Source: a virus
Length of the DNA: 28,406 nt
Strand: one strand, 5' to 3'
Virus record (IMG/VR): IMGVR_UViG_3300035681_000101
Location: 1 to 28,406 of that record
Under the pieces are notes generated by a model. The model made no database searches and was not told the origin of the DNA. It was given only the letters and a program-made list of their open reading frames with translations. The translations under genes were made by a program, and so were the position numbers. Position 1 is the first letter of the stretch. Every line of letters begins with the position of its first letter. Positions 5,034 to 27,205 of the stretch are shown piece by piece.

Positions 5034-5376
5034 CCCACAGAGCCTCTGTATCCAGCATAGGAGGAGGCTTTACTTCTTTGGGTACATAACCCTCAGCCTG
5101 TAGCCAGACCCACGCCCAGACAAGAATGGGATAAAGGAGAAACTGATAGGCCATCGCGCCTGCGCCAACCCAACCGATAGCAGGTCGCCATCCAGCCACA
5201 AAGAGATTCTGATTTGCCGCCTCAACCTTGTTGACTTCCATCTGACCGAGGTCGACAGCCTGATCTATTCTTTTAGCTTCAAGCTCAAGCTCCATCCGCT
5301 CTTTATCGGATGTGTGAAGGTCGCCGATAACCTTACCGACAGACTCAACGACAGAGGATATGCCGAGGATGTTCAC
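4963..5376 (-). CDS. Holin, 3-TM family (GTA-holin-like)
   Basis: A 137-residue protein with an N-terminal charged helix (residues 20-55, DKERMELELEAKRIDQ), then NLFVAGWRPAIGWVGAGAMAYQFLL (about 57-81), a second hydrophobic stretch (LVWAWVWL) and a third near 111-126 (EALWVILSGMLGIAGM). The motif VAGWRPxIGW followed by hydrophobic segments matches the 3-TM holin family associated with gene-transfer agents and proteobacterial phages. It would form inner-membrane lesions that release the muramidase. It starts with GTG overlapping the muramidase stop (GTGA). Confidence 0.82.
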   Translation of the reverse strand: MNILGISSVVESVGKVIGDLHTSDKERMELELEAKRIDQAVDLGQMEVNKVEAANQNLFVAGWRPAIGWVGAGAMAYQFLLYPILVWAWVWLQAEGYVPKEVKPPPMLDTEALWVILSGMLGIAGMRSFERVKGVAR

Positions 5377-5867
5377 AGCTTGAGTGCTCGATTGAGCCAG
5401 CCTAAAAGAAACTTAATCTGGCTTCGATCACGCATCACAATGTCACGATAACGAGCGATCTTCGCAAGGGCATAGGAAGCCACAAAAAGCTCTTCGTTCA
5501 TTTGGTTGAGGGCTTGTATGGACTTAGGACCGATAACGCCGTCTGGAGCCGTTTTAACGCATATCTGGGCTAGTTTGGAAGCCACAGAAACGCCCGCATT
5601 CACAGCGAAGTTAAAGATAGAAGATGCAACAACAGGATTCAGTTGGTCGCCTTGTATGCGATCCCAGAATTCAGACTTGTAAAAGTCCCTGACCATTTGA
5701 GTTGGTGGGGTTTCGTCTCTGTCGATAAAGCCCCATCCCGGCCAGTGCGGGTTCTTGTTTCTCGCAATCCCTGCGTAGGTTAAACCGCCAGTGTCGCCTT
5801 TTACTTTATGCAGGACATATCCACCTTCGTCCTGAATCATCTTGTCAAAGGCTGACTCAAAACTCAT
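5373..5867 (-). CDS. GH108 endolysin (N-acetylmuramidase)
   Basis: A 164-residue enzyme of glycoside hydrolase family 108. Glu14 in the DEGGYV motif is the expected catalytic acid, followed by KGDTGGLTYAGIAR (residues 23-36). The C-terminal peptidoglycan-binding half has the DGVIGPKSIQALNQ motif (about 109-122). It cleaves the glycan backbone of peptidoglycan during lysis. No signal peptide is seen, so export depends on the adjacent holin. The ATG overlaps the stop of the preceding small gene (ATGA), so the three lysis genes are coupled. Confidence 0.92.
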   Translation of the reverse strand: MSFESAFDKMIQDEGGYVLHKVKGDTGGLTYAGIARNKNPHWPGWGFIDRDETPPTQMVRDFYKSEFWDRIQGDQLNPVVASSIFNFAVNAGVSVASKLAQICVKTAPDGVIGPKSIQALNQMNEELFVASYALAKIARYRDIVMRDRSQIKFLLGWLNRALKL

Positions 5868-6104: not shown

Positions 6105-8015
6105 CTAAACGAAGAATAGTAAGAAACTTTGTGAAGGCGTTACGCCATCGCTCATTGCAGACGAAACAATTGTGCAGGATTCTATGGTTGCCGTATCAAA
6201 TGCACAAATTGTAATGATCTGATCGCTGACTGAGCAAGCCTCAGAAATGCTTGCAAGAATCACTTTGTCTGAACTCGACAATTCCTGAGCGGTGGCACTT
6301 TCCAATACCGCAGCAAAGTAAGCAATCGACCCTTGATTTGCATCACTCGCGCTTGCAGATTCATTGACATCAGCTTGCACCACACTGCCTGAAGAGACTG
6401 CATCCGACGCGACAGCAGAATCAGTAACTAAAGAACTAAACCCTTGATTGGAACTGATGCTGTCACTAGCAATAGCAAACTCATCAACCTTGTCATCTAA
6501 GCCCGTAGAGTCAAAAATAATCGCGGAATCACTGATGCTAGCTTCAAGATCAGCGATAACATTTACCGAGTCTTGAGCGGTAGACGATTCAGACAACACC
6601 GCAGATAACGTCTGCTCGGAACTCTCGCTATCGCTGGCAGTCGATGTTTCTGAAATAGATGCCGCTTTGACTTGCTCGCTGTCAGCAACATCTGAGCCTG
6701 AAGCACTTTCGACAATATCAAGTAAGTGATTTGCACCGCCAGAAACTTGATCGGCAATTGCAGATGATTCATTTATTGCAGATATTGCATTTAAGAGAGA
6801 AACGACAGCATCCGAACCCGTCGCGCTCTCATTGACAGAAACAAATAGATTTTGAGTGGGAGCGACAACATCCGAGCCAGATGCGGTTTCATCACTAAAG
6901 CCAGCCTTGATTTGATCGCTACTTGTACTGTCTGAGCCGCTTGCGCTCTCGCTTACAGATGATTGGAAGCCGCTTTCTGCAAAAGTGACTGTGCCGCTGC
7001 CACTTGTTATGGTGTAAGTATTAAAGCCACCCGAAGAAACAACGGATGAAGAAACGCCAGAGAAAGTAGCTGTGTAAGCATCCTTAATCTTAATGACAAT
7101 AACGCCAGACCCACCTTGATTCCCGTTAGAAGTCGTTGATGTCCCACCGCCACCAGCGCCACCACCAGTATTAGGCGTTCCACCCGTACCAGCAGGAGTA
7201 GTAGATCCGCGCCCACTTCCGCCTCCACCTAAACCACCGGCTCCTGTGGGAAATCCCCCGCCTCCACCGCCGTAGTAAGAACCTGTAATAATAGACTGGA
7301 CACCGATACCACCGGCACCGCCTATTGAAGTAGGTGTGCTTACTGAATTACCACCAACACCGCCCGCGCCACCACCGCCGCCGCCTTGACCTAAGCCAAC
7401 GCCCGATCCATTCCCGCCTGCATAACCTTGTGTAGCCGAACCACCTGTTCCAGAAAAACTTACGCCACCACCACCGCTAGCACCAGAACCGCCATTTGTA
7501 ACGCCGGAATTGTCATCTGAATAGCCAGCGCCACGGCCACCGCCATAAGCTATGACTGAAGCAAGTTGAGAATTATCCCCTGCCTGAGCTAAGGTGCGAG
7601 GAGAAGTATATAACTGGCCTGCGCCACCTTGACCAATAATGACCGTGTAGGAAGTATTTAGATCAAAAGCGGCAGAGGAAAGAACCTCTACAACACCACC
7701 GCCACCGCCGCCTGATGCGTTTCTAGAACCACCGCCACCGCCACCGCCAACAACTAAATAACTAACAACAAAGTCAGTGCCAACATTAGCGTCGGAAACC
7801 GATGCAGATTCAGAAACAGAGGCTTGCAATACATTGGTACTAACTAACGCGTCAGATGCGTTAGCAGATTCATTAGCTACAGCTTGTAAATTAGCTAGGC
7901 TTGATAAAGCATCAGAGCCGCTAGCAGATTCAGAAATGACATTGTTAACACTCGGAACAACCGGAGTGCCGGTATCGCTGAATGGCGCTGCTGAGAATGA
8001 ATTGATACCGTACAC
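6105..8015 (-). CDS. Repeat-rich tail fibre/adhesin with glycine-rich domain
   Basis: A 636-residue structural protein. Residues 1-25 (MYGINSFSAAPFSD) resemble the leader of small phage fibre proteins. Then come three 20-residue repeats (x-E-S-A-x-x-S-D, Glu at 29, 49, 69), a glycine-rich beta domain (about 86-306, starting YLVVGGGGGGG and ending GGSGVIVIKI, typical of phage glycine-rich adhesins), a short beta link, fourteen more 20-residue repeats (356-616) and a hydrophobic tip FLLFFV. The start is GTG, with AAGG 7 bases upstream formed by the preceding gene's stop region; an ATG 2 bases earlier is out of frame. It is the last gene before lysis, as expected for a receptor-binding fibre. 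Direct receptor binding is inferred. Confidence 0.7.
   Translation of the reverse strand: MYGINSFSAAPFSDTGTPVVPSVNNVISESASGSDALSSLANLQAVANESANASDALVSTNVLQASVSESASVSDANVGTDFVVSYLVVGGGGGGGSRNASGGGGGGVVEVLSSAAFDLNTSYTVIIGQGGAGQLYTSPRTLAQAGDNSQLASVIAYGGGRGAGYSDDNSGVTNGGSGASGGGGVSFSGTGGSATQGYAGGNGSGVGLGQGGGGGGAGGVGGNSVSTPTSIGGAGGIGVQSIITGSYYGGGGGGFPTGAGGLGGGGSGRGSTTPAGTGGTPNTGGGAGGGGTSTTSNGNQGGSGVIVIKIKDAYTATFSGVSSSVVSSGGFNTYTITSGSGTVTFAESGFQSSVSESASGSDSTSSDQIKAGFSDETASGSDVVAPTQNLFVSVNESATGSDAVVSLLNAISAINESSAIADQVSGGANHLLDIVESASGSDVADSEQVKAASISETSTASDSESSEQTLSAVLSESSTAQDSVNVIADLEASISDSAIIFDSTGLDDKVDEFAIASDSISSNQGFSSLVTDSAVASDAVSSGSVVQADVNESASASDANQGSIAYFAAVLESATAQELSSSDKVILASISEACSVSDQIITICAFDTATIESCTIVSSAMSDGVTPSQSFLLFFV
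6168..6971 (-). repeat. Fourteen degenerate 60-bp units encoding 20-residue repeats
   Basis: Acidic anchor residues fall at 356, 376, 396, 416, 436, 456, 476, 496, then 512, 532, 552, 572, 592 and 612 of the fibre: exact 20-residue spacing with a single 16-residue step. The consensus is E/D-S-A-x-x-S-D followed by about 13 variable residues. At DNA level the units are diverged, so these are protein-structural repeats and not a recent tandem array. Confidence 0.85.
7764..7943 (-). repeat. Three N-terminal copies of the same 60-bp unit
   Basis: Residues 25-84 of the fibre hold three units with Glu at 29, 49 and 69, the same motif and period as the C-terminal array. The glycine-rich domain therefore sits as an insert between two parts of one repeat system. 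Confidence 0.8.
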
Positions 8016-8024
8016 ATTCTGGCC

Positions 8025-8348
8025 TTATACGATTTGCGACGTTGTTAGATTGTTAATTTGCGAGGAACTAAACAAAGTTACATCAATAACTGTAAGAGGC
8101 TCTACAACCTCCACAGTCCCCCACGATCCTTCTACCCAGCTTCTTGTATCGTGCTGCCAATTCCACTGGTAACCTGCTCTGTCTTGTGGCTTAGGGTCTC
8201 TTATGATCCATTCCCAGTTTAGCCACACCAGTTCCTTGCCTTCAGGAATCTCTGTCGGAGGCGATGGAGCCTGTTGCCAGCCCTCTGTTCCATCGGTTTC
8301 TTGTGATGGGATAGACCCGTTTTTAGTCCAGTACATATCTATCCTCAT
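8025..8348 (-). CDS. Small tail-fibre-region protein
   Basis: A 107-residue protein, Trp-rich (WLNWEWIIRD, GYQWNWQHDTRSW, GSWGTVEVVEP), with no recognised domain. Length and location between two fibre genes suit a fibre accessory or assembly protein. It starts with ATG overlapping the LamG-protein stop (ATGA). Its TAA forms part of the ribosome binding site for the following repeat fibre, so the two are probably translated together. Confidence 0.6.
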   Translation of the reverse strand: MRIDMYWTKNGSIPSQETDGTEGWQQAPSPPTEIPEGKELVWLNWEWIIRDPKPQDRAGYQWNWQHDTRSWVEGSWGTVEVVEPLTVIDVTLFSSSQINNLTTSQIV

Positions 8349-10450
8349 AAGGTTGGGAAGGCTGCTGTTGGTGCAGTGAAGTTGGTTGTATAACGAGCGT
8401 AGCCTTTGGTGACTCGGAAGTCTTGTAGGTAGCCGTTTAATTGGTCAAAACTAAGTCCATAAGTCACCCCGATTAAAGGGCCGCCTGTTCTACATGAGTA
8501 ATTTGTTGAATCGGTGTAGGTAGAGCCTGATTGAGTTCCGTTTACAAACAATTTTGTTGACGTGCCGGATCGTGCTAAAGCAATGTGATACCACTGTCCG
8601 GTTGATAACGTAGATGAATTTATTTGCGCTGCACTATTAGCAAAATAAGTTAACACACCGCTTGATGAAAAATAAAGCAACGGGTAAGCCCCATTTGTGT
8701 TTGGTCTAAACTCAAATAAAGTCCCAGAAGCAACAGAAGTAAAATACGCCCACGTTTCAATCGTAAAATCGCCTGTACCAAACACATAATTTTGCGTTTG
8801 AGCAGAGGATTGCATATTCAAATAATCCCCACTCCCATCAAAGTACATACTCCCACTGCCCCACTTAGCAGAGATCGCCGTACTGATCTTCGCACCGTCC
8901 ACCGTCTCCAGATCATTCTTGCTAGTAGCATCGTAAATACCAGCGTTGGTGAAGTTGAGGAGGAGGGAGGTGTTGGTGATGGCGGTAAGAGGTGCTGTGG
9001 GGACGGTTACTGATGTAACGCCAGAGCCTTTTACAAGCCTAAAATCAGCAAGATAGCCCGTGTATCTTTGCGCTGTGTTCCCTGTATCTATACCAACCAA
9101 CAAGTCGTTAGTAGAAGTGTAATTAGAAGAATCGCCTGTGCTACCACCCTCGACACCGTTTACAAATACTTTTGTAACGTTGCTTACACGACTGACAACA
9201 ACATACGCCCACGCATTTAATGTTGTGCTATTTGTTGTTGTAATTGCATAACCACCAGCGCCGTATTGAGCAATACCAACTTGTCCGGTACTTAATAAAT
9301 TTACAACAAGATTCCCGCTAGCTTTGTAGAAAATAGTGTTTGTTGTATTAAAAGCTGTTGGATAGACCCAAAACGATAATTGAAAATCGCTTGTCCCTAT
9401 ATTTATTGCTGTGTTATTGGGTACGGTTAGATAGTCCACATTCCCATCGAAATACCCTGACCCACCATAAGTCGCAGCAGACCAGCTAGCACTGGGGTTG
9501 AATGGAGAGAAGGCTTGTACGGAGGGAGAGCCGTTGGCTGTGATGGTGAGTGGGCTAGATGCCGGTATATTGACACCGTTACTGTCTAGGAAGCGGTTGC
9601 TTTGGCAGGTAAGCAGCGAACATTCTGTACCCTGTGGTGGGTTTGTGCCGCCTGTGGTGCGGGTAAGCGGAGAGGTTGGCGGTGTAAACGCTGATGTGTA
9701 GACAGCACGCCCTTTGACAACCCGAAGGTTGCTTATATATCCAGTGAGATAGGTAGAACTATAATCTCTAGCTATTCTATAACCGCCAGCAAAACCATTG
9801 GTCATTGTTCCTGTATAAGTAGCTGTACCCCTACTAACACCGTCAATATATAAGACAACATTATTAGACCCAGACCCAGATCTAACTAACGCAAAATGAA
9901 ACCAAAAGTTTGCAGAAACCGTAGAGCTAGACGTTATAACAAAATTTGTACTTGCTCCATAAGAAGCGGCAACTAAATTATTTCCGCTGTTTATAAAAAT
10001 TCCCAGCTCATAACCACCGTAATTATGAAAATAAATGGGTCTGCTTACACTTGTTGTTGTAGCGTATACCCATCCCTCAACAGTAAAGTCGCCAGTGCCT
10101 AAATGAAGAGCGGCAGCATCGGGTGTTTCTAAATTACTACTCCCATTAAAATAATTCCCCCACCCCGTCTGCGAGAACGGTGAGAACGTACCTTGTGTCG
10201 TATTGCCGTTACGGGTGATGGTGAAGTTATTGGTAGAGCTATCTAAGAACGTGTTGTTTTGTGCGCCGTTGGTTCCGTTGCCGGGAAGCAATAGCGTGGT
10301 GTAGTCGAAATAAGGGTCGGGCAAAATAGAGGAAGGCCAGATGCCCTGACTTTTGGCAATCATCTGCTCTACAAGTGACCAGACACCCTTTGCAGATGCG
10401 GTTGTCGGAATATTTGCTGGGCCTATAACCCCGCCGTTACCACGCGGCAT
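8345..10450 (-). CDS. Triple LamG/concanavalin-like fibre protein
   Basis: A 701-residue protein with three successive LamG-3-type jelly-roll lectin domains, at about residues 47-265, 280-490 and 495-701. Each starts with a Y-F-D/N-G-x-x-x-L/Y motif (about 100, 340, 540), has a G-T-x-D-F-x-x-x-x-W-V/A-Y strand, and ends with G-Y-I/L-x-x-F/L-R-V/L-V/T-K-G followed by Y/T-x-x-F-T/V-x-P-T. The N-terminus (GVWSLVEQ, residues 22-29) is an attachment-like motif of phage tail proteins. These folds usually bind sugars, so host-surface glycan recognition is likely. GGAGG precedes the ATG. Confidence 0.82.
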   Translation of the reverse strand: MPRGNGGVIGPANIPTTASAKGVWSLVEQMIAKSQGIWPSSILPDPYFDYTTLLLPGNGTNGAQNNTFLDSSTNNFTITRNGNTTQGTFSPFSQTGWGNYFNGSSNLETPDAAALHLGTGDFTVEGWVYATTTSVSRPIYFHNYGGYELGIFINSGNNLVAASYGASTNFVITSSSTVSANFWFHFALVRSGSGSNNVVLYIDGVSRGTATYTGTMTNGFAGGYRIARDYSSTYLTGYISNLRVVKGRAVYTSAFTPPTSPLTRTTGGTNPPQGTECSLLTCQSNRFLDSNGVNIPASSPLTITANGSPSVQAFSPFNPSASWSAATYGGSGYFDGNVDYLTVPNNTAINIGTSDFQLSFWVYPTAFNTTNTIFYKASGNLVVNLLSTGQVGIAQYGAGGYAITTTNSTTLNAWAYVVVSRVSNVTKVFVNGVEGGSTGDSSNYTSTNDLLVGIDTGNTAQRYTGYLADFRLVKGSGVTSVTVPTAPLTAITNTSLLLNFTNAGIYDATSKNDLETVDGAKISTAISAKWGSGSMYFDGSGDYLNMQSSAQTQNYVFGTGDFTIETWAYFTSVASGTLFEFRPNTNGAYPLLYFSSSGVLTYFANSAAQINSSTLSTGQWYHIALARSGTSTKLFVNGTQSGSTYTDSTNYSCRTGGPLIGVTYGLSFDQLNGYLQDFRVTKGYARYTTNFTAPTAAFPTL

Positions 10451-12981: not shown

Positions 12982-14046
12982 TTAATATTCTACCACCCCA
13001 TCTTTGTAAAAGGCTAGGTTGTTTTTTAGTCTTTGATCGTCGGGAGAAAGATCAACAGCGGCTTGACCATATCGCGCCGCCTCGTCTTTAAGACCTAGAT
13101 GATAGGCCGAGATCGCTGCAAGATCGTGCGGCTTAGATCCCCACACTTCAGGATCGCAGGTATAGACAAGCTCTCTGTCCACGATGCTAAGTGCCATTGT
13201 AGCCGCGTGATGGCATTCTTTCCACAGGTGTTTCTTATAACAAGACATCGCAAAATCAACCCACGGTTCTCGTGTTCCCGGAGCCTCAGCAATCGACATC
13301 CTGAACCACTTTAGAGCCGTCCAGTAATCAAGTTTCTCATCATAAGCCTGACCTAAGAGCCGCATCGCGTAACACCGCTCATTCGGCCACGTTGCTTCAG
13401 GCATATTCAAGTAAGCATTTAGAGCCTCTATAGCCTCATCCCAGAGACGGTAGAAGGTTAACTCTCTAGCAAAGTAGAAAGCGTTTCTAGGGCATCTAGG
13501 ATCCTCTTTAACAGCCATTCTGAGGAGGTAGAGATATTGCCCCCGTGACTTTGTGGGATCGGGGTGATGAGAGACTAAGAGTTTGTCTGTTTGGGCATAG
13601 ACTTCTTTGATGCGGAGGTCGGGGCGAGGGTACTCATGCACCGGATGCCTCCAACGGTAGCCGTTTCGATGGTGGATCTTTTCATAGTAGAAAAGAATGT
13701 TATGCCCCCAATCAAACTTGTATCTCAATCGAGTCGTTTCGGGCTTCCAGACGCTTTCTATCTCTTCGCGCCAGCCGGGTTCTAAAACCTCGTCGAGGTC
13801 TAAAGAGACACAGACATCGTAGTCGCCGGGGATCAGACATAAAGCCGTATCCCTTGCCATATCGAAACGCCACGGCTTCACAGATATATCGTAGACGGTA
13901 GCGCCACATTCTCTGGCTAGGCTTGCAGTGTTGTCCGTAGAGCCTGTGTCGGCTATCAGGATAAGGTCAGCATCTTTTGCTGAGTCGCAGAATCGTTTTA
14001 CAAACTGCTCTTCGTTTTTTGAGATTGCGTATACGCAGATTTTCAT
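12982..14046 (-). CDS. GT2 glycosyltransferase with TPR-like C-terminus
   Basis: A 354-residue protein. The N-terminal GT-A domain begins MKICVYAISKNEEQFVKRF, has IADTGSTDNT (residues 31-40), the DxD motif Asp83-Leu-Asp85 in SLDLDEVLE, and an R/D-rich acceptor loop (WRHPVHEYPRP). From about 190 onward, helical repeats (RNAFYFARELTFYRLWDEAI, ERCYAMRLLGQAYDEK, HDLAAISAYHLGLKDEAARY) match TPR units. It would transfer a sugar from a nucleotide donor; the acceptor is unknown. It lies between the J-like tip operon and the fibre genes. The ATG overlaps the preceding stop (ATGA), so I set the start at 14046 and not the upstream GTG. Confidence 0.88.
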   Translation of the reverse strand: MKICVYAISKNEEQFVKRFCDSAKDADLILIADTGSTDNTASLARECGATVYDISVKPWRFDMARDTALCLIPGDYDVCVSLDLDEVLEPGWREEIESVWKPETTRLRYKFDWGHNILFYYEKIHHRNGYRWRHPVHEYPRPDLRIKEVYAQTDKLLVSHHPDPTKSRGQYLYLLRMAVKEDPRCPRNAFYFARELTFYRLWDEAIEALNAYLNMPEATWPNERCYAMRLLGQAYDEKLDYWTALKWFRMSIAEAPGTREPWVDFAMSCYKKHLWKECHHAATMALSIVDRELVYTCDPEVWGSKPHDLAAISAYHLGLKDEAARYGQAAVDLSPDDQRLKNNLAFYKDGVVEY

Positions 14047-14336
14047 GTTTCCCACGGCAGAGGCGGATCAATGGTTGATGGTGACTGCTTTTCCTGAAGC
14101 CTTGTACTAACGATCTCTTCGGTTCCTTCCTTACTGACTTTCTGCCAAACCCATCCTAAAACCTGATCTTGTGTAAGACTGTCGTAAGGTGTGAAATCAC
14201 CGCTAGGAGGGCTTAACAATGTAACCCCTGAGAATGACTCATCCGCCTCGCTTACAGTCCACGAAGCCGCTATAACAACGTCTGAGAGGCCATCTACGAT
14301 GGGTTTCACTTCTAGTTTGGTGATCTGCCAGTTCAT
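14043..14336 (-). CDS. DUF7936-like small tail-region protein
   Basis: A 97-residue protein starting MNWQITKLEVKPIVDGLSD, with TVSEADESFSG and YDSLTQDQVLGWVWQKVSKEGTEE. This is the pattern of a short conserved protein encoded next to tail-tip genes in many phages. GGAG is upstream and its ATG overlaps the J-like gene stop. Function is unknown; it may be a tip-complex or host-recognition accessory. Confidence 0.7.
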   Translation of the reverse strand: MNWQITKLEVKPIVDGLSDVVIAASWTVSEADESFSGVTLLSPPSGDFTPYDSLTQDQVLGWVWQKVSKEGTEEIVSTRLQEKQSPSTIDPPLPWET

Positions 14337-17300
14337 TCTAGCTCCGCAAGTCTAGCCTCTAATGCCTCGACCTTATGAATTAACTCTAGTAAAGCAAGAT
14401 CTTTTAGCATTTGGAATTTAGTGTTGTCGAACGTTAAAACTCGATCATTCGTTCCCGGTACTTTTTGATAATCGCCGCTAGGAAGCATTGGTGATTCAAC
14501 TAAAGCCTCTGCAATACCTGCGCCGACTTGCTGCGCCGTATAACCCCAGACTGGATTAGATGCTTCATGCTTCCATTTCCAAACAACCGGCTTGCCGATT
14601 GCTTTTATAGCCTCCAGTGCATTAGGAACCGGAATGTCGCCTAAGACATCTTTCATCCTCGCATCAGAGGTTAGCGTCGACCACGTTGCGGTTGACCCTC
14701 GCTGGTTAATATAGACGCCCGCATAGGTTCCGCCTGAGAGCGTGTAATACACCATATTCCCGGTCGTGAGATTGGTGTTCTCTGATCCTAAAAATGTTTG
14801 CAGGGTCGCTGTAGATCCGGTTCCCGCTGCACCAACTACTGAAGTTGATCCGTTCTTAAATCCACCGACATAGGTTTCCGAAACAAGCCCACTCGTGATC
14901 TTGCTGCCGGGAAGATTAGGAATGTCTGATGCGCTAAGACTAGCAAACGTTCCATCGCCTCTCAGGAATTGAGTCGTAGATCCGTTGAAGGCAGAGAACG
15001 TATAAGAACCGTATCTGATAGTTCCGCTGCGGATGTTTAGCGCATAACCTGAAGAGTCAGCAATAGAGACTTCAGTTCCGCCGCTCGTGTTGTATCCCCT
15101 GACGGCAGCCGAATAAGATCCATCCTGATAGCCTAAGAAACCACTGACTACACCTGATCCGTAATCTCTGGTTCCACTTGCACCCGACCGAATGTTTGTC
15201 GAGCCCGTTCCTACCCACGCTCCTAATGTGCCTTCAATCGAAGCATCAACTGTTTTTGCGTAATAACCATAGGAACTATTACTAAGCCCCGTGACGTTGG
15301 GAATCTCTGCGCTCGCTCCTACTGCCGTTGATCCTGTGATGACAGGGTTAAGCCTTAGTAGTGCGTCTGTACTTGTGCCAGTGCCTCCAAATGTCGCTAG
15401 TAATGTATTACTAGAGTTGTAAACCGCGACCTTATTGGAGACTCCCTTGTTGATCTCGACCCGCTGCGCCCCGCTTACACCCGTAACTAATTCACCTCTA
15501 AGATATGCAGCATTCGCGTAAAGGTTCCCTGAAGGTTGATCGAGATACCAACCGAGGGTTCCAAAGTTTGTAGTTGTTGGTGGATTTGGCCCGTTGTAGT
15601 TATCGGACCTAATGCTTTGGAAGATAGATGCAGCAATCGGACCCGTCCACGCTGTCGAGTTAGCCGGAACACCGTCGACCGTGACTGCATTGGCGTTATA
15701 CCTTCCTTGTATGTACCAAAGGACTTGCCCGATAGACACCGCAGGAGTTGATGAGGACCAGCCACTAGGGACCGCAGATCCAGAGGTCGGAGTCGTAAAG
15801 GTTGGTGCGGCAGCGCTTTGTGACTGAACAAGATAAGCCGTCAGTGCGGCAATCCCTACTAAGCCCGAACTGCCTGTCGGCCCCGTTAATGATGCCCCGG
15901 TAGGGCCAGTGGCCCCGCCTGCTCCGGTCGGTCCTGTCGGTCCGGTGGGCGTAACTGGAGTCCAATTTAATACCGAGCTTGTTGCAGAAAGAGCGCTTTT
16001 TGCAGAATCATTTTCGACAGAGAAAGCGAAGTAATAATTTCCTGCGGACAATGTGATGTTGTCGAACTTAAAACTTGATGAGTTGGCAAACGTAGAGCCA
16101 TTGGAAAGAATGGCTGAACTCCATACCTTCCAATCGGTAGCAGATGGGCTTGCAGAGGTCGTGTAAAACAAGGTGATCGTCGTTACTCTTCCAACTGCTG
16201 GCATCGTGCAGGTAGCCGAGAAAGTCGGAGGAGCTGTCGAAGGCGATAGATCGCCAATAACCGGAGCGTTTAGCGAAGAAAAGTAATTAGGACTCGGCAG
16301 GCTTGAATTGGGAGCGGCAGTAAATGCGGTGATGCTCGCATCGTCGTAGACCACCGCGTTGTACTCAGAAAGCTCTAGGCTTGCACCGAGGTTGCCGTCA
16401 TCGACAGTCGCCTCGGATACCTTCATCACTCTAAATAGTTTATTCGTCCATCCGTAGTCGGCATTTGTAATATCAACCACATCACCCGCGTCAACCTGAA
16501 TGCCGGGGTAAGTGGAAGTGATCGTGACAATCAAATCCTCTCTAGCCTGCTCAAGCCTGCGGTTGCCGAGATACTGAGCCTGAACGGAATCGTTCGTAAA
16601 CTCTAAAGTGGTTGTTTGTCTGTTGGGTGGCTCGTTGGGATATAAGAGATTCTCGGGAGTCTCCATATAAACAAGATCGGGCTGATCTCGATTTAGTTTG
16701 GATGGAAACTCAATCTGAATCTGGTTAATCTGCTGATTGATGTCGGTGGCCGAAACTCTGATCTCGCCGATAAGATTTGTATCGTTGAATGAAAAGGTCG
16801 AGCTTTCTGCTTTGTTGATGACAATCGACCAAAGACCCGAAGCCGCGTTATATGCCATCCAGCTATCTGAGCATTCCAGCATCTTTTCGACGTTCTCAAG
16901 CACCGGCCTTCCTGTGTCGACAACACCGTTGATCCTGTATCGGGCTTGCGTAGCTGATCCACCTCCTGCGGGCGTGTAGGTGATTGTCTGGTCTGAGTAA
17001 GTATTAAGAGCCGTCTTGCTTGTAGAGTCTACTAGGCCCATCATGCCTGCACCGTACCTTGTATCTGTCATGTAGTCGTACCAGACATCTCCGGGCTTCG
17101 CTACAGATCCGCCTTTAGGGTAATGCTTGCAATAAAACGTGATTGGCAAAAGCCCGGTTGTCCCTGCGTCAGTGTTGTAATTCAGTTTGACAATCGCAAA
17201 GGCGAGTCCGTTCATCTGCCGTCCAGATGACGGCCAGCGAAGAGAAGCTGCAATATCAGAGCCTCCCATAAAAACATGCGGCGCAGTGCCGTTTATTGGT

Positions 17301-17788
17301 GTAATAACGCCAGCGTTTGTAGACGTGTAAAGGCTTATATATAACTTTCCGCTTATCTTATCGTCGACATTTGGAGGCGTGGCCCCATCAGTAAGAGATA
17401 TAACTTTTGTCTGATCTGTTCCGTCAAACGTTACCAGTTGATCTCCGTAGTAAAACTTTGACCGGTCAAAGGAAAATGTAGCGCTTGCGTCTGATGAGAT
17501 AGAACTGATCGCAAGAACGTAGTACATCGTCTTTTGATCGGTCGACAAAACAGCATCAACAAACACTCCACCTAGCCACGCATCGCCATAAACGACAGGA
17601 ATCGAGTTGTTGTTAGCTGGAGGGACCTGTTGCCTTGCGCCCGTGTCTTGAGAATTCGGAGGCTTAGACCCAAAAGCTCTTGTGACAACAAAAGAAACCG
17701 CAAAATTGATTGCCGCCGCAGTAGCATAGAACGCAAAAGTCCCTGCCGTAAGTGAAAAAAGCGTGGTTGCTACTAAAGTACCAATCAT
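14333..17788 (-). CDS. Tail-tip (J-like) protein with collagen repeat and S74 chaperone
   Basis: A 1151-residue multidomain protein. Residues 1-40 are hydrophobic and membrane-like. Then comes a tail-tip region (IPVVYGDAWLGGVFVDAVL near 63-81; a tip domain to about 470), a fibronectin-like beta domain (about 510-610), a collagen-like segment (about 613-643, GPTGPTGAGGATGPTG), variable beta domains, and a C-terminal Peptidase_S74 intramolecular chaperone. The latter has the SDARMKD signature with candidate catalytic Ser at about 1041 and ends in a coiled coil (ELIHKVEALEARLAELE). S74 domains help trimeric fibres fold and then cut themselves off. This protein is likely the central host-contact fibre. 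GAGAG lies upstream of the ATG. Confidence 0.85.
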   Translation of the reverse strand: MIGTLVATTLFSLTAGTFAFYATAAAINFAVSFVVTRAFGSKPPNSQDTGARQQVPPANNNSIPVVYGDAWLGGVFVDAVLSTDQKTMYYVLAISSISSDASATFSFDRSKFYYGDQLVTFDGTDQTKVISLTDGATPPNVDDKISGKLYISLYTSTNAGVITPINGTAPHVFMGGSDIAASLRWPSSGRQMNGLAFAIVKLNYNTDAGTTGLLPITFYCKHYPKGGSVAKPGDVWYDYMTDTRYGAGMMGLVDSTSKTALNTYSDQTITYTPAGGGSATQARYRINGVVDTGRPVLENVEKMLECSDSWMAYNAASGLWSIVINKAESSTFSFNDTNLIGEIRVSATDINQQINQIQIEFPSKLNRDQPDLVYMETPENLLYPNEPPNRQTTTLEFTNDSVQAQYLGNRRLEQAREDLIVTITSTYPGIQVDAGDVVDITNADYGWTNKLFRVMKVSEATVDDGNLGASLELSEYNAVVYDDASITAFTAAPNSSLPSPNYFSSLNAPVIGDLSPSTAPPTFSATCTMPAVGRVTTITLFYTTSASPSATDWKVWSSAILSNGSTFANSSSFKFDNITLSAGNYYFAFSVENDSAKSALSATSSVLNWTPVTPTGPTGPTGAGGATGPTGASLTGPTGSSGLVGIAALTAYLVQSQSAAAPTFTTPTSGSAVPSGWSSSTPAVSIGQVLWYIQGRYNANAVTVDGVPANSTAWTGPIAASIFQSIRSDNYNGPNPPTTTNFGTLGWYLDQPSGNLYANAAYLRGELVTGVSGAQRVEINKGVSNKVAVYNSSNTLLATFGGTGTSTDALLRLNPVITGSTAVGASAEIPNVTGLSNSSYGYYAKTVDASIEGTLGAWVGTGSTNIRSGASGTRDYGSGVVSGFLGYQDGSYSAAVRGYNTSGGTEVSIADSSGYALNIRSGTIRYGSYTFSAFNGSTTQFLRGDGTFASLSASDIPNLPGSKITSGLVSETYVGGFKNGSTSVVGAAGTGSTATLQTFLGSENTNLTTGNMVYYTLSGGTYAGVYINQRGSTATWSTLTSDARMKDVLGDIPVPNALEAIKAIGKPVVWKWKHEASNPVWGYTAQQVGAGIAEALVESPMLPSGDYQKVPGTNDRVLTFDNTKFQMLKDLALLELIHKVEALEARLAELE

Positions 17789-17791
17789 TTT

Positions 17792-18229
17792 TTACTCTCG
17801 GAAAAAGGTTGCTTGCATAGGTTTGAATTTATATCGTGTGTAATCTATCTCTGGACTGCTGTGCATAAGACTAGTCAAAACAACCTGTACACGTCCTTGA
17901 TCTAACATGTATTGAGCCAGTTGGTTAAACCTTAGCCAAAGCCTGCCGCCAATACTTGTATTTCGATATTCAGGCATTACCCACCAGCCAACCTCATGCA
18001 ATTCTTTAACATCTGTATTCCAGAAATTGCCTGTTACATAAGCGGCAAGAAAACCTCTTAAGTTGTCATCGACCAAAACAAAGCCTCGGCCATTAATCAT
18101 TTGCTGAAACAAATTTTTGACTTGCGGTTCGTTTTGTTGCGCCTTCAATGCTTCTATGCCCGCTTCCTCTGCGTATAACCGCATCATTTCTAACAAATGC
18201 GGTATGTCGTATTTTGTCGCTTCTCTCAT
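17792..18229 (-). CDS. GNAT-family acetyltransferase-like protein
   Basis: A 145-residue protein with a GNAT fold pattern: MREATKYDIPHLLEMMRLYAEE at the N-terminus, a central strand GFVLVDDNLRGFLAAYVTGNFW, then ELHEVGWWVMPEYRNTSIGGRLWLRF, where YRNTSIGGRL matches the R/Q-x-x-G-x-G/A acetyl-CoA-binding loop. Members sit in lambda-like tail gene clusters of many phages, between distal tail and J-like genes. The substrate is unknown. GGAGG lies 3 bases before the ATG. Confidence 0.8.
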   Translation of the reverse strand: MREATKYDIPHLLEMMRLYAEEAGIEALKAQQNEPQVKNLFQQMINGRGFVLVDDNLRGFLAAYVTGNFWNTDVKELHEVGWWVMPEYRNTSIGGRLWLRFNQLAQYMLDQGRVQVVLTSLMHSSPEIDYTRYKFKPMQATFFRE

Positions 18230-24791: not shown

Positions 24792-25817
24792 TTAGGTTCC
24801 GATCAAACGTACACCGGCAGTTACATCACGAACGGTCGAGACCATCCGCTTCTCAGCATAGATCGTAATCGTTCCGGGTTGGGTCTGCTCCATTCTCTGA
24901 AGCGTCATCTCTGAATGATCGACGATCCACATAAACCGCGGCCAGTTTGCAAGATAAATCGGAGAAGCACCAGCAGCGGGAGCATCCAAATAAGGATTAG
25001 CAATAACCGGCCAGCCCATAATGTTTACCGCAGGGCCTTCGTCTTTCTCGCCTACTTCTACAAGCGCGTAAGAATTACCAGAGTGGGCATACTCTCTGAG
25101 AATCTGAATAGCTGTCGGGTGCATCATCCACGCGGTTCCCGGCATTCTCCAAAACTGACCGGGAAGAGCATTAGCAACGTCTACAAGCGTTTCCCACTCA
25201 AGGTTCGTATGTGTAAAGCCCACTGTGTTAAGTGTGTGTATGCCCGCTGTTATAGCCGTTCCTGACGTTCCGTAAGCAGCGGATGATCCAGCAGTGCCAG
25301 CGTACATCTTCAAGCCTCTAAGGCCGTTTGTAGCGCCTGTGGAGGTTGTTGTAGAGCCTGCCTGATCGTTATTGATTGCCATAGACGCAGCTTCGATCTG
25401 GCTAAATTCCATTGCGAGATCTTCAACAAGTGCAGCGTCTAATCCGTTAATGTCATCCATCGCCGCTGCCCTGATTGGCATCTGAGCGGAAATAACACGC
25501 ATCGGAAGCTGCCAAATGGATGTGGCGATATTGGGTGAGCCTGAGTTCGCGTTGACCGTGTAGCCCCACGGGTTTGTGGAGTTAGCAGCGTTACCCGTTT
25601 TGACAACAAACTGAATATCCGAGTCTGCCGTCATTGTCTGATTTGCATAAACCCGAAATGGGTTCCAGTAACGAAGGGATGCAAACACATCCTCGTTGTA
25701 AACGCGACCGCCAACCCCGCTGCCTGAGCCGGTTAGGGCTGAGGCTTCCGCGAGGTTGACAGTGCTTTTGCCCTGTTGAAGAGCCTCTTTCAAGCCTTCC
25801 AAAATTACCTGTTTCAT
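24792..25817 (-). CDS. Second HK97-fold major capsid paralogue, no delta domain
   Basis: A 341-residue protein clearly related end to end to the upstream capsid gene: both have ASALTGSG, VGGR, a VKTGNA motif, WGYTV, ATSIWQ, PIRxAAxDDIxGL, NNDQxG, GLRGLxxYAG and a terminal TVRD/SVRD-x-x-A-G-V-R. The N-terminal delta domain (about 83 residues of the paralogue) is absent, so this form starts near the equivalent of the mature capsid. I chose ATG at 25815-25817, with GGAGAG about 4-5 bases upstream; a longer frame would start at a TTG inside the previous stop. It may be a minor or vertex subunit; no decisive residue separates that from a duplicate. Confidence 0.85.
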   Translation of the reverse strand: MKQVILEGLKEALQQGKSTVNLAEASALTGSGSGVGGRVYNEDVFASLRYWNPFRVYANQTMTADSDIQFVVKTGNAANSTNPWGYTVNANSGSPNIATSIWQLPMRVISAQMPIRAAAMDDINGLDAALVEDLAMEFSQIEAASMAINNDQAGSTTTSTGATNGLRGLKMYAGTAGSSAAYGTSGTAITAGIHTLNTVGFTHTNLEWETLVDVANALPGQFWRMPGTAWMMHPTAIQILREYAHSGNSYALVEVGEKDEGPAVNIMGWPVIANPYLDAPAAGASPIYLANWPRFMWIVDHSEMTLQRMEQTQPGTITIYAEKRMVSTVRDVTAGVRLIGT

Positions 25818-25833
25818 AGTCTCTCCAAAAGGG

Positions 25834-25851
25834 AGAGGGCTTGCGCCCTCT
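25834..25851 (-). promoter_or_regulatory. GCAA-tetraloop hairpin between the two capsid genes
   Basis: Coding-strand AGAGGGC pairs perfectly with GCCCTCT across a GCAA (GNRA) loop. It lies right after the first capsid stop codon and before the GGAGAG of the second capsid gene. The tract that follows is TCCCTTTT, not a clean T-run, so it is more likely an mRNA stability or processing element than a strong terminator. Confidence 0.7.
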
Positions 25852-25855
25852 TTTA

Positions 25856-27205
25856 TCAAGCAGCCGTACCGGTCGAACGATAACGAACACCAGCGTTAGG
25901 ATCGCGCACCGAAGTGGCTGCACGAGTCTCGCCATAGAATGTTATAGATCCCGGAACTGTCTGGTCGTATCTCCTGAGAACCATTGAGAGACGCATGACG
26001 ATGGTGTGGAACTGTTGCCAGTCCGCGAAATACATTGGATAGTAGGACGTAGTCCCTGCTGCGCCGGTGGTGGGCTGGCTAGGATTGTCGACATACTTGT
26101 TAACTGCAACCTTGAAGCCGAGCAATTCACCAACAATGCCATCGGTGCGCGAAACACCGTCAACATAGATCGGACGGCCTTGCAGATCGACTAACCCACG
26201 GATGCCCTGAAGCAGGATCGGGTTAATCATGAACGCTGCTGTCGGTGTCCAATACTGCTGTGGCAGGCTGTAAATAAAGTTCACTACGTCTTTGTAGTTC
26301 ACATTATTTGCGGCAACCGTGTTGGCGTTGGTGGTCAACTGATCGTAGGTAGCAAGGTTATGCAAACCGTTGGTGGTTGCAGTTCCCGAAGTACCAAACG
26401 AAGCCGTCGAGCAAGAACCGCCCGTGTAGGTTGCATTAGCACCAGCGTACTGATCTAAACCGCGCAAGCCATCAGCGCCGCCCGTCGTTACAGAAGTTCC
26501 GGTTCCCGACTGATCGTTGTTCTGGATCATCGAGGTCGCCATTGCCTGCTGGAACTCCATCAGCATATCGTCAACAACGTTAGCCTCTAAGCCGTCGATG
26601 TCATCAAGTGCTGCCGTACGGATGGGGAACTGAGCATTTAAGTCCTTAAGGATCACTTGCCAAATGCTTGTGGCTTCAGTCGTGGGTGTGCCGTTGTTTT
26701 GAACGGTGTAGCCCCACTGAGCACCTGCATTGCCGGTTTTGACGCGGAACTGATAAGCCGAACCGTCAGTTGCAACGATACGCGACAGATCCATCAAAGG
26801 ATTTCCGAGACGCTTTGCAGCGAACACGGGATCGTAAGCTGTACGGCCACCAACGTCGTAGCCAGAACCCGTAAGAGCCGAGGCTTCCTTGATGTACGCT
26901 TCGCACTGGTCGACAGATTCAAAGATCTTGACTTCGCGCTCGATGTTGTTACCGGCCTTCATGTACTCCTTAAGAACGTCTTTGAAGCGACGATTTGCTT
27001 CGCCACGGACGGTCTTGTGGATAGGACGGATGATCGAAGGAGCGGCAACTTTTGCCTCTAAAGCGGCAATCTTTGCTTCGGTTTCGGTCTTAAGCGACTC
27101 GACAGCCTCAGCAACTTTTGCCTCGACAGCCTGTGCGGTTTCTGCCAATTTGGCAGCGCTAGATGCTTCGATTGCATCCAGTTTTTCAATGACTTTTTCC
27201 AACAT
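25856..27205 (-). CDS. Major capsid protein (HK97 fold) with delta domain
   Basis: A 449-residue HK97-type capsid protein. Residues 1-55 are a strong coiled coil (LEKVIEKLDAIEASSAAKLAETA...) serving as the delta/scaffold domain, joined by a basic linker (about 56-107) likely cleaved by the protease encoded just upstream. The capsid fold starts near ASALTGSGYDVGGR (108-121), with the E-loop (RVKTGNAGAQWGYTV), P-domain segments (FPIRTAALDDIDGLEANVVDDMLMEF) and the A-domain end (GSITFYGETRAATSVRDPNAGVR). AGGAG precedes the ATG. The adjacent second capsid gene is a shorter paralogue. Confidence 0.93.
   Translation of the reverse strand: MLEKVIEKLDAIEASSAAKLAETAQAVEAKVAEAVESLKTETEAKIAALEAKVAAPSIIRPIHKTVRGEANRRFKDVLKEYMKAGNNIEREVKIFESVDQCEAYIKEASALTGSGYDVGGRTAYDPVFAAKRLGNPLMDLSRIVATDGSAYQFRVKTGNAGAQWGYTVQNNGTPTTEATSIWQVILKDLNAQFPIRTAALDDIDGLEANVVDDMLMEFQQAMATSMIQNNDQSGTGTSVTTGGADGLRGLDQYAGANATYTGGSCSTASFGTSGTATTNGLHNLATYDQLTTNANTVAANNVNYKDVVNFIYSLPQQYWTPTAAFMINPILLQGIRGLVDLQGRPIYVDGVSRTDGIVGELLGFKVAVNKYVDNPSQPTTGAAGTTSYYPMYFADWQQFHTIVMRLSMVLRRYDQTVPGSITFYGETRAATSVRDPNAGVRYRSTGTAA

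Follow-up and report, generated by a model that had tools for sequence, protein, structure and literature searches.

What kind of protein is built from regularly spaced 20-residue units interrupted by a glycine-rich domain, and can that domain move between phages independently of the units around it? These questions are raised by a gene in the window, a stretch of 28,406 nucleotides that constitutes a 28.4-kb IMG/VR virus record. Its structural module is siphovirus-like and encodes prohead protease, capsid, distal tail, tape measure and tail-tip/fibre proteins. We consider it about 70% probable that the gene product is a tail-fibre or tail-appendage adhesin, in which an acidic beta-rich stalk of units carries an exchangeable receptor-binding glycine-rich domain.

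The gene and its setting

The putative fibre gene and the genes used to place it are as follows.

6105..8015, minus strand: putative repeat-stalk fibre gene with inserted glycine-rich domain (open frame, GTG start, 636 aa)
8025..8348, minus strand: small gene of 107 aa, immediately upstream of the fibre gene (in L002 another small gene, of 120 aa, is found instead)
8345..10450, minus strand: Laminin_G_3 (LamG) neighbour with three concanavalin A-like domains (PF13385, E 2.3e-50)
5373..5867, minus strand: endolysin, GH108 and peptidoglycan-binding, the first lysis gene past the fibre gene (PF05838, PF09374)
14333..17788, minus strand: large tail-tip/tail-fibre protein belonging to this module (tail fiber protein according to phrog_5616 and phrog_1980)

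The preliminary description had placed the gene correctly but gave no strand. In L066-L068 an ATG (MYGFSAYAQ...) stands at the position of the window's GTG start. The gene comes after a row of fibre-type genes, and because it closes the tail/fibre cluster, lies beside the LamG protein and precedes the lysis genes, its product is read as a fibre; we infer from this order that it is located on the virion. The LamG neighbour resembles the concanavalin A-like fibre proteins of aquatic phages, being 45.6% identical over 98% of its length to a protein of phage DSL-LC04, and in stretch L001 of DSL-LC04 no open reading frame containing the 20-residue array was detected. In the relative L026, PHROGs classify the neighbour of the array gene as a tail fibre protein.

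The PHROGs matches of the LamG protein include both virion structural protein (head) and baseplate families, which would also suit a head decoration or a secreted factor in place of a fibre. This alternative is considered improbable, as the gene lies between the tail/fibre and the lysis genes both in the window and in its relatives, and glycine-rich domains of this kind are common to tail adhesins.

Units of the protein

The fibre protein can be divided into six parts, all encoded on the minus strand.

7950..8015, minus strand: N-terminal cap, residues 1-22, VYGINSFSAAPFSDTG... (alignment and architecture tables)
7770..7949, minus strand: first three 20-residue units, residues 23-82 (profile scan)
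7080..7766, minus strand: glycine-rich domain, residues 84-312, putative receptor-binding cassette (PF21722, AF2, fold matches, mosaicism)
6969..7079, minus strand: beta-strand segment closing the glycine-rich domain, residues 313-349, YTATFSGVSSSVVSSGGFNTYTITSGSGTVTF (AF2, two long strands)
6141..6968, minus strand: C-terminal array, residues 350-625, with 14 units of which the final one is decayed (self-identity, profile scan, AF2 strand period of 20)
6105..6140, minus strand: C-terminal tail TPSQSFLLFFV, residues 626-636, and stop (kept in the window's clade)

The motif of the cap, [VM]FGxxxF[AS]xxPF[AS], is also present in array proteins without the glycine-rich domain, and in other clades the proteins end in 11-residue Trp repeats or in AEQLVIKLRSFTERRRF. 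Acidic anchors (E or D) occur at residues 29, 49 and 69, then every 20 residues from 356 to 496, at 512 after a step of 16, and again every 20 from 532 to 612. The anchors number 17 and the units above the profile threshold 16, the decayed unit being the last (606-625). In all 16 scored units an acidic partner lies six residues past the anchor (E/D-x5-D/E). The short step separates the units that begin at 490 and 506, and L003, L004, L007 and L057 have it at the corresponding position. The C-terminal array has a lag-20 self-identity of 0.266, against 0.212 for the best value over lags 5-60 in 5000 shuffles. Both the anchor positions and this signal agree with the earlier proposal of anchors every 20 residues with a single 16-residue slip.

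The protein had also been described as 17 near-perfect repeats. The count and the spacing hold but the sequences are not near-perfect, since the units share on average only 31% of their amino acids and 40% of their nucleotides in pairwise comparison. Where two units have the same residue they use the same codon in 34% of cases, and 37% would be expected from the codon usage of the gene. Judged by these codons, the units of the window are saturated at synonymous sites and it is the pattern alone that is preserved. As codon agreement between units is at chance level, recent tandem duplication in the window was rejected, and the spacing is probably kept by selection, which supports the original suggestion that the DNA copies had diverged under such a constraint.

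The unit family in viruses

The consensus of the unit is [FY]-x-[AS]-x-[IV]-[SA]-E-[ST]-A-T-[AG]-[ST]-D-x-[VTI]-[SA]-[AS]-x-x-x, and the unit occurs in no fewer than 96 different proteins (non-redundant set) encoded on virus contigs, each of which has 4-44 units. Position 7 is E or D in 100% of units and position 13 is D or E in 99%; position 5 is one of VILMFYW in 90%, position 1 in 77%, and position 11 is A in 47% and G in 37%. Acidic residues make up 15% of the unit versus 1% for basic residues, and Pro 0.9% overall. An iteratively trained profile detected 548 units in 37 related ORFs versus 1 in shuffled sequence, counts that lean towards the profile since it was trained on the same proteins; the invariant anchors in alignment A2 are independent of it. 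Over the wider protein set 1100 of the 1219 spacings are exactly 20 and 62 are 21, and thus the period is kept in relatives. The number of repeats varies among these relatives, as does the presence of the glycine-rich domain, two features whose comparison the preliminary description had proposed.

The species genomes and IMG/VR were scanned with a tighter consensus profile, the 22-fragment one being too divergent. Among the genomes of 84,980 bacterial and archaeal species, 42 stretches fitted the pattern and none passed tblastn, a confirmation step that may suffer from low-complexity masking, and in IMG/VR 301 places were confirmed. These scans are suggestive of a unit confined to viruses. Pfam, PHROGs and NCBIfam gave no match to the repeat array above the curated cut-off, so that the earlier remark that this exact repeat is not known to belong to a named family holds for these libraries after a profile search. 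Weak matches included phrog_12240 (unknown function), with a best E value of 4.8e-6 for L091. Matches of relatives to Pfam SVA (L086), TFCD_C, NEL and CTD were below the cut-off and are meaningless. When annotated phages were searched by tblastn, using the protein together with five relatives or fragments as queries, nothing was returned, the low-complexity filter being on and probably masking the arrays and the glycine strings. No solved structure was found for the array, and no 20-residue phage repeat was found described in the literature covered, subscription papers lying mostly outside that coverage.

To judge from the proteins that contain it, the array is a general module. Its cargo may be absent or may consist of glycine-rich domains, of WGxGxWG inserts (L068, L072) or of beta-propellers, such as the SBBP propellers in the second array proteins of L086 and L129. 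The array is also placed at the C-terminus of proteins of 1.4-2.1 kaa (L100, L101, L131 and L149). L086 and L065 have in common the N-cap and a C-terminal LWELIDDSQ..W sequence, with the insert in L065 only, and within one cap family the array spans 281, 300, 340, 380 or 462 residues while the cap is near-constant (18 or 21 residues). Array proteins that lack an adhesin domain altogether are frequent, so that the array may serve a purpose in its own right.

The longest array seen has 44 units (L115:5569-8382); all its spacings are 20 and several of its units are near-identical (SALRTLPAAVSE), therefore recent duplication does happen in some lineages. The contigs L060, L063, L065, L066, L086 and L129 also encode a second protein, characterised by the motif MPxIQR...ARGFGFG, and these proteins mostly have 4-10 of the 20-residue units followed by a propeller or another C-terminal domain. 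A second periodic module is found at the C-termini of many relatives (L091:5944-7326, L026:3703-4620), with Trp every 11 residues (W..I.x.Q....) and exactly this spacing in 256 of 269 cases. It is absent from the window protein.

The glycine-rich domain

Residues 84-310 match PF21722 (Gly_rich_2) with an E value of 1.4e-16 and 61.7 bits, against a cut-off of 24.3, and glycine accounts for 86 of the 228 residues between 85 and 312 (38%), with visible glycine strings. The family phrog_2295 (unknown function) matches residues 15-360 (E 9.1e-34), covering the first units and the glycine-rich domain but not the C-terminal array. When the protein was modelled by AF2 (13 sequences) the 10-residue mean pLDDT over the domain was mostly 50-88, with some stretches below 50; it was about 75-89 over residues 301-350 and poor elsewhere outside the domain. 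Compared by Foldseek with solved structures, the domain gave modest matches to the Bxb1 tail tip 9d93 (E 5.5e-3/6.7e-3, probability 0.77/0.98) and to the Pam3 fibre 7ypx (E 0.063, probability 0.87), none reaching 1e-3. In BFVD 93 matches were obtained at E<=1e-3, and among those listed most are phage glycine-rich-domain proteins, with a few algal-virus and unnamed entries. The Pfam match together with the Bxb1 and Pam3 fold matches supports the view, already expressed in the preliminary description, that the domain is an insert of the receptor-binding type.

The glycine-rich domain of Pam3 gp24 has 39% Gly, a conserved stem and a hypervariable distal tip that is proposed to bind the receptor (PMC9608196), and polyglycine 'brush' domains are discussed as antireceptor candidates of siphovirus hubs (PMC13243795). 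The domain of the window is like S16 gp38, Pam3 gp24 and the Bxb1 brush domains in its glycine strings and in its fast variation, being highly variable between close relatives as such receptor-binding tips are. It is inserted after the third unit, whereas the known ones cap a helical or TNF-like stalk.

Exchange of the domain between phages

Between the window and L002, its nearest relative, 60 synonymous and 21 non-synonymous differences were counted among the 180 codons of residues 121-300. In the flanks (residues 1-84 and 313-636) synonymous differences affect 9 of 408 codons (Fisher p 2.7e-25 versus the insert), and over the whole aligned genome the two are about 91-92% alike. In comparison with L008, the insert has 81% protein identity and the arrays 32-37%; with L003 the values are 64% for the insert, 89% for the linker and 76% for the first units. 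Trees also disagree in both directions, since in AU tests the insert data reject the grouping of the flanks (5e-7) and the flank data reject the grouping of the insert (1.3e-7), for groups that had been named after the identities had been seen.

Other pairs present comparable mosaics. At the nucleotide level the identity of L060 and L063 is about 100% through the insert, then 77%, and then about 40% in the array; an assembly chimera is possible in this pair, and the cases of the window with L002 and with L012 are independent of it. L063 and L065 share 80-92% on both sides of the insert and are almost unalignable inside it.

Strong diversifying selection or targeted hypermutation could be thought to generate the differences of the insert in place of a cassette exchange, as receptor-binding tips are known as fast-varying. 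Nevertheless, synonymous differences predominate in the insert, its similarity shifts abruptly to a distant lineage (L012, L008) and the tree conflict is reciprocal, which leaves this explanation highly improbable; targeted hypermutation in particular was rejected on the predominance of synonymous differences. The contrast in divergence between insert and flanks and the conflict of the trees in both directions show, at the level of these comparisons, that the glycine-rich domain has been exchanged as a unit between related phages. The earlier suggestion that it can be swapped is thus borne out by the synonymous contrast with L002, by the AU conflict and by the L060/L063 pair. An exchange of this kind may alter host specificity.

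The homology of L002 to the window stops at window position 8027, and L002:272-634 is the 120-aa gene mentioned above, the start of which resembles the phrog_7759 member of L064. This replacement of the small upstream gene may belong to the exchange described above, or it may concern a fibre chaperone.

Predicted fold of the array

In the AF2 model of the full-length monomer each unit of the array has two short strands, with a pLDDT of about 35. With a fragment of eight units and a 22-row in-register alignment the pLDDT was 54 and the period was kept exactly, each strand having about 15 residues and the 5-residue turn having the E and D anchors at its two ends. The monomer prediction that had been suggested therefore returned a regular strand pattern but at low confidence. 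From these models the unit is likely to be a beta-rich strand-turn-strand.

These low pLDDT values in both models would also be in agreement with an intrinsically disordered, negatively charged spacer (an entropic bristle), in which the 20-residue pattern would represent short binding motifs, and so would the A/S/T/E/D/G composition with almost no K or R. However, strands were obtained in every unit in both AF2 runs, and hydrophobic residues at positions 1, 5 and 15 with an exact 20-residue step over as many as 44 units are hard to reconcile with a random coil. We regard the disordered spacer as unlikely.

An ordered array could be a parallel beta-solenoid with one unit per coil, its E and D ladders being neutralised by metal ions. 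The eight-unit model is closest to left- and right-handed beta-helices, beta-solenoids (LpxD, GlmU, pectin-lyase-like) filling its Foldseek list, and a ladder of carboxylates lacking basic partners is reminiscent of ion-binding beta-rolls. Still, every match was insignificant (best E 0.52, probability <0.1), and AF2 remained unconfident here although it is prone to inventing confident, unrealistic solenoids for repeats (PMC11795689). The array also differs from the RTX beta-roll of GGxGxDxux nonapeptides, as its period is 20 and not 9 or 18, its consensus has no glycine pair and the GGxGxD motif is absent. The solenoid is consequently doubtful.

Triple beta-spiral fibres, such as the adenovirus shaft and reovirus sigma1, consist of short strand-turn-strand repeats whose fixed period sets the length. 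A homotrimeric fibre of this type with one unit per rung is a tentative possibility for the array, which resembles these fibres, in its predicted models, by its strand-turn-strand pattern of fixed period and has hydrophobic residues at fixed positions. It would fit the low confidence of the monomer models, and phage fibres such as Pam3 gp24 are trimeric (PMC9608196). On the other hand the array unit is longer, with 20 residues, it has the acidic pair E-x5-D, and its turn is without a conserved Gly/Pro, position 11 being divided between A and G and proline being rare.

Proposed role

In the adhesin reading preferred here, the units would form the acidic beta-rich stalk and their number would set its length. 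A stalk is favoured because the spacing is near-constant, because the array span varies behind a constant cap and because other cargo is carried on the same arrays; with the low AF2 confidence in the array, an ordered one is tentative. The cap would be the virion end. The glycine-rich domain would recognise the receptor through a polyglycine lattice with variable loops, its fold family being assigned by profile and its binding presumed. Its position after unit 3 of 17, close to the N terminus, would be odd for an adhesin at the tip should the N terminus face the virion. As the sequence comparisons show, the domain is swapped as a cassette, with the stalk unchanged, by recombination in the segments on either side of it, and such a swap may allow the phage to change host or receptor without rebuilding the fibre. 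As the weakest step, the stalk might be folded or bundled by divalent cations or by trimerisation, because the carboxylates at positions 7 and 13 are conserved and basic residues are almost missing.

More speculatively, the array may define a class of cation-dependent beta fibres with stacked E7 and D13, a common extensible stalk that grows by whole units (4-44) and onto which unrelated adhesins, such as glycine-rich domains and propellers, are plugged and swapped, confined to viruses and found in uncultured tailed phages; we hold this to be possible but not probable.

Glycine-rich phage adhesins are a known kind of protein; the repeat family has no name in Pfam, PHROGs, NCBIfam or the literature covered. 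Most receptor-binding proteins of uncultured phages have no annotation, and with a profile of the unit (E at 7, D at 13, period 20) probable fibre proteins could be recognised in virus contigs where current libraries give them no name. The mosaic glycine-rich domain, for its part, documents directly in sequence how adhesins are swapped in nature. Should the array prove to be a fibre fold of a new kind, the fixed 20-residue step and the changes of length by whole units would make it a ruler.

Other genes of the structural module

Two adjacent genes on the minus strand (24792-25859 and 25856-27205) encode paralogous major capsid proteins, both matching phrog_10 and 39% identical over 386 columns; PF05065 is matched by the longer copy only. 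A tandem pair of major capsid genes is unusual. Within the tail/fibre module, 12982-14055 (minus strand) encodes a glycosyltransferase (phrog_13126, E 1.6e-100) that possibly modifies the fibres or the host surface, and a GNAT acetyltransferase (PF00583) is encoded amid the tail genes at 17792-18229 (minus strand).
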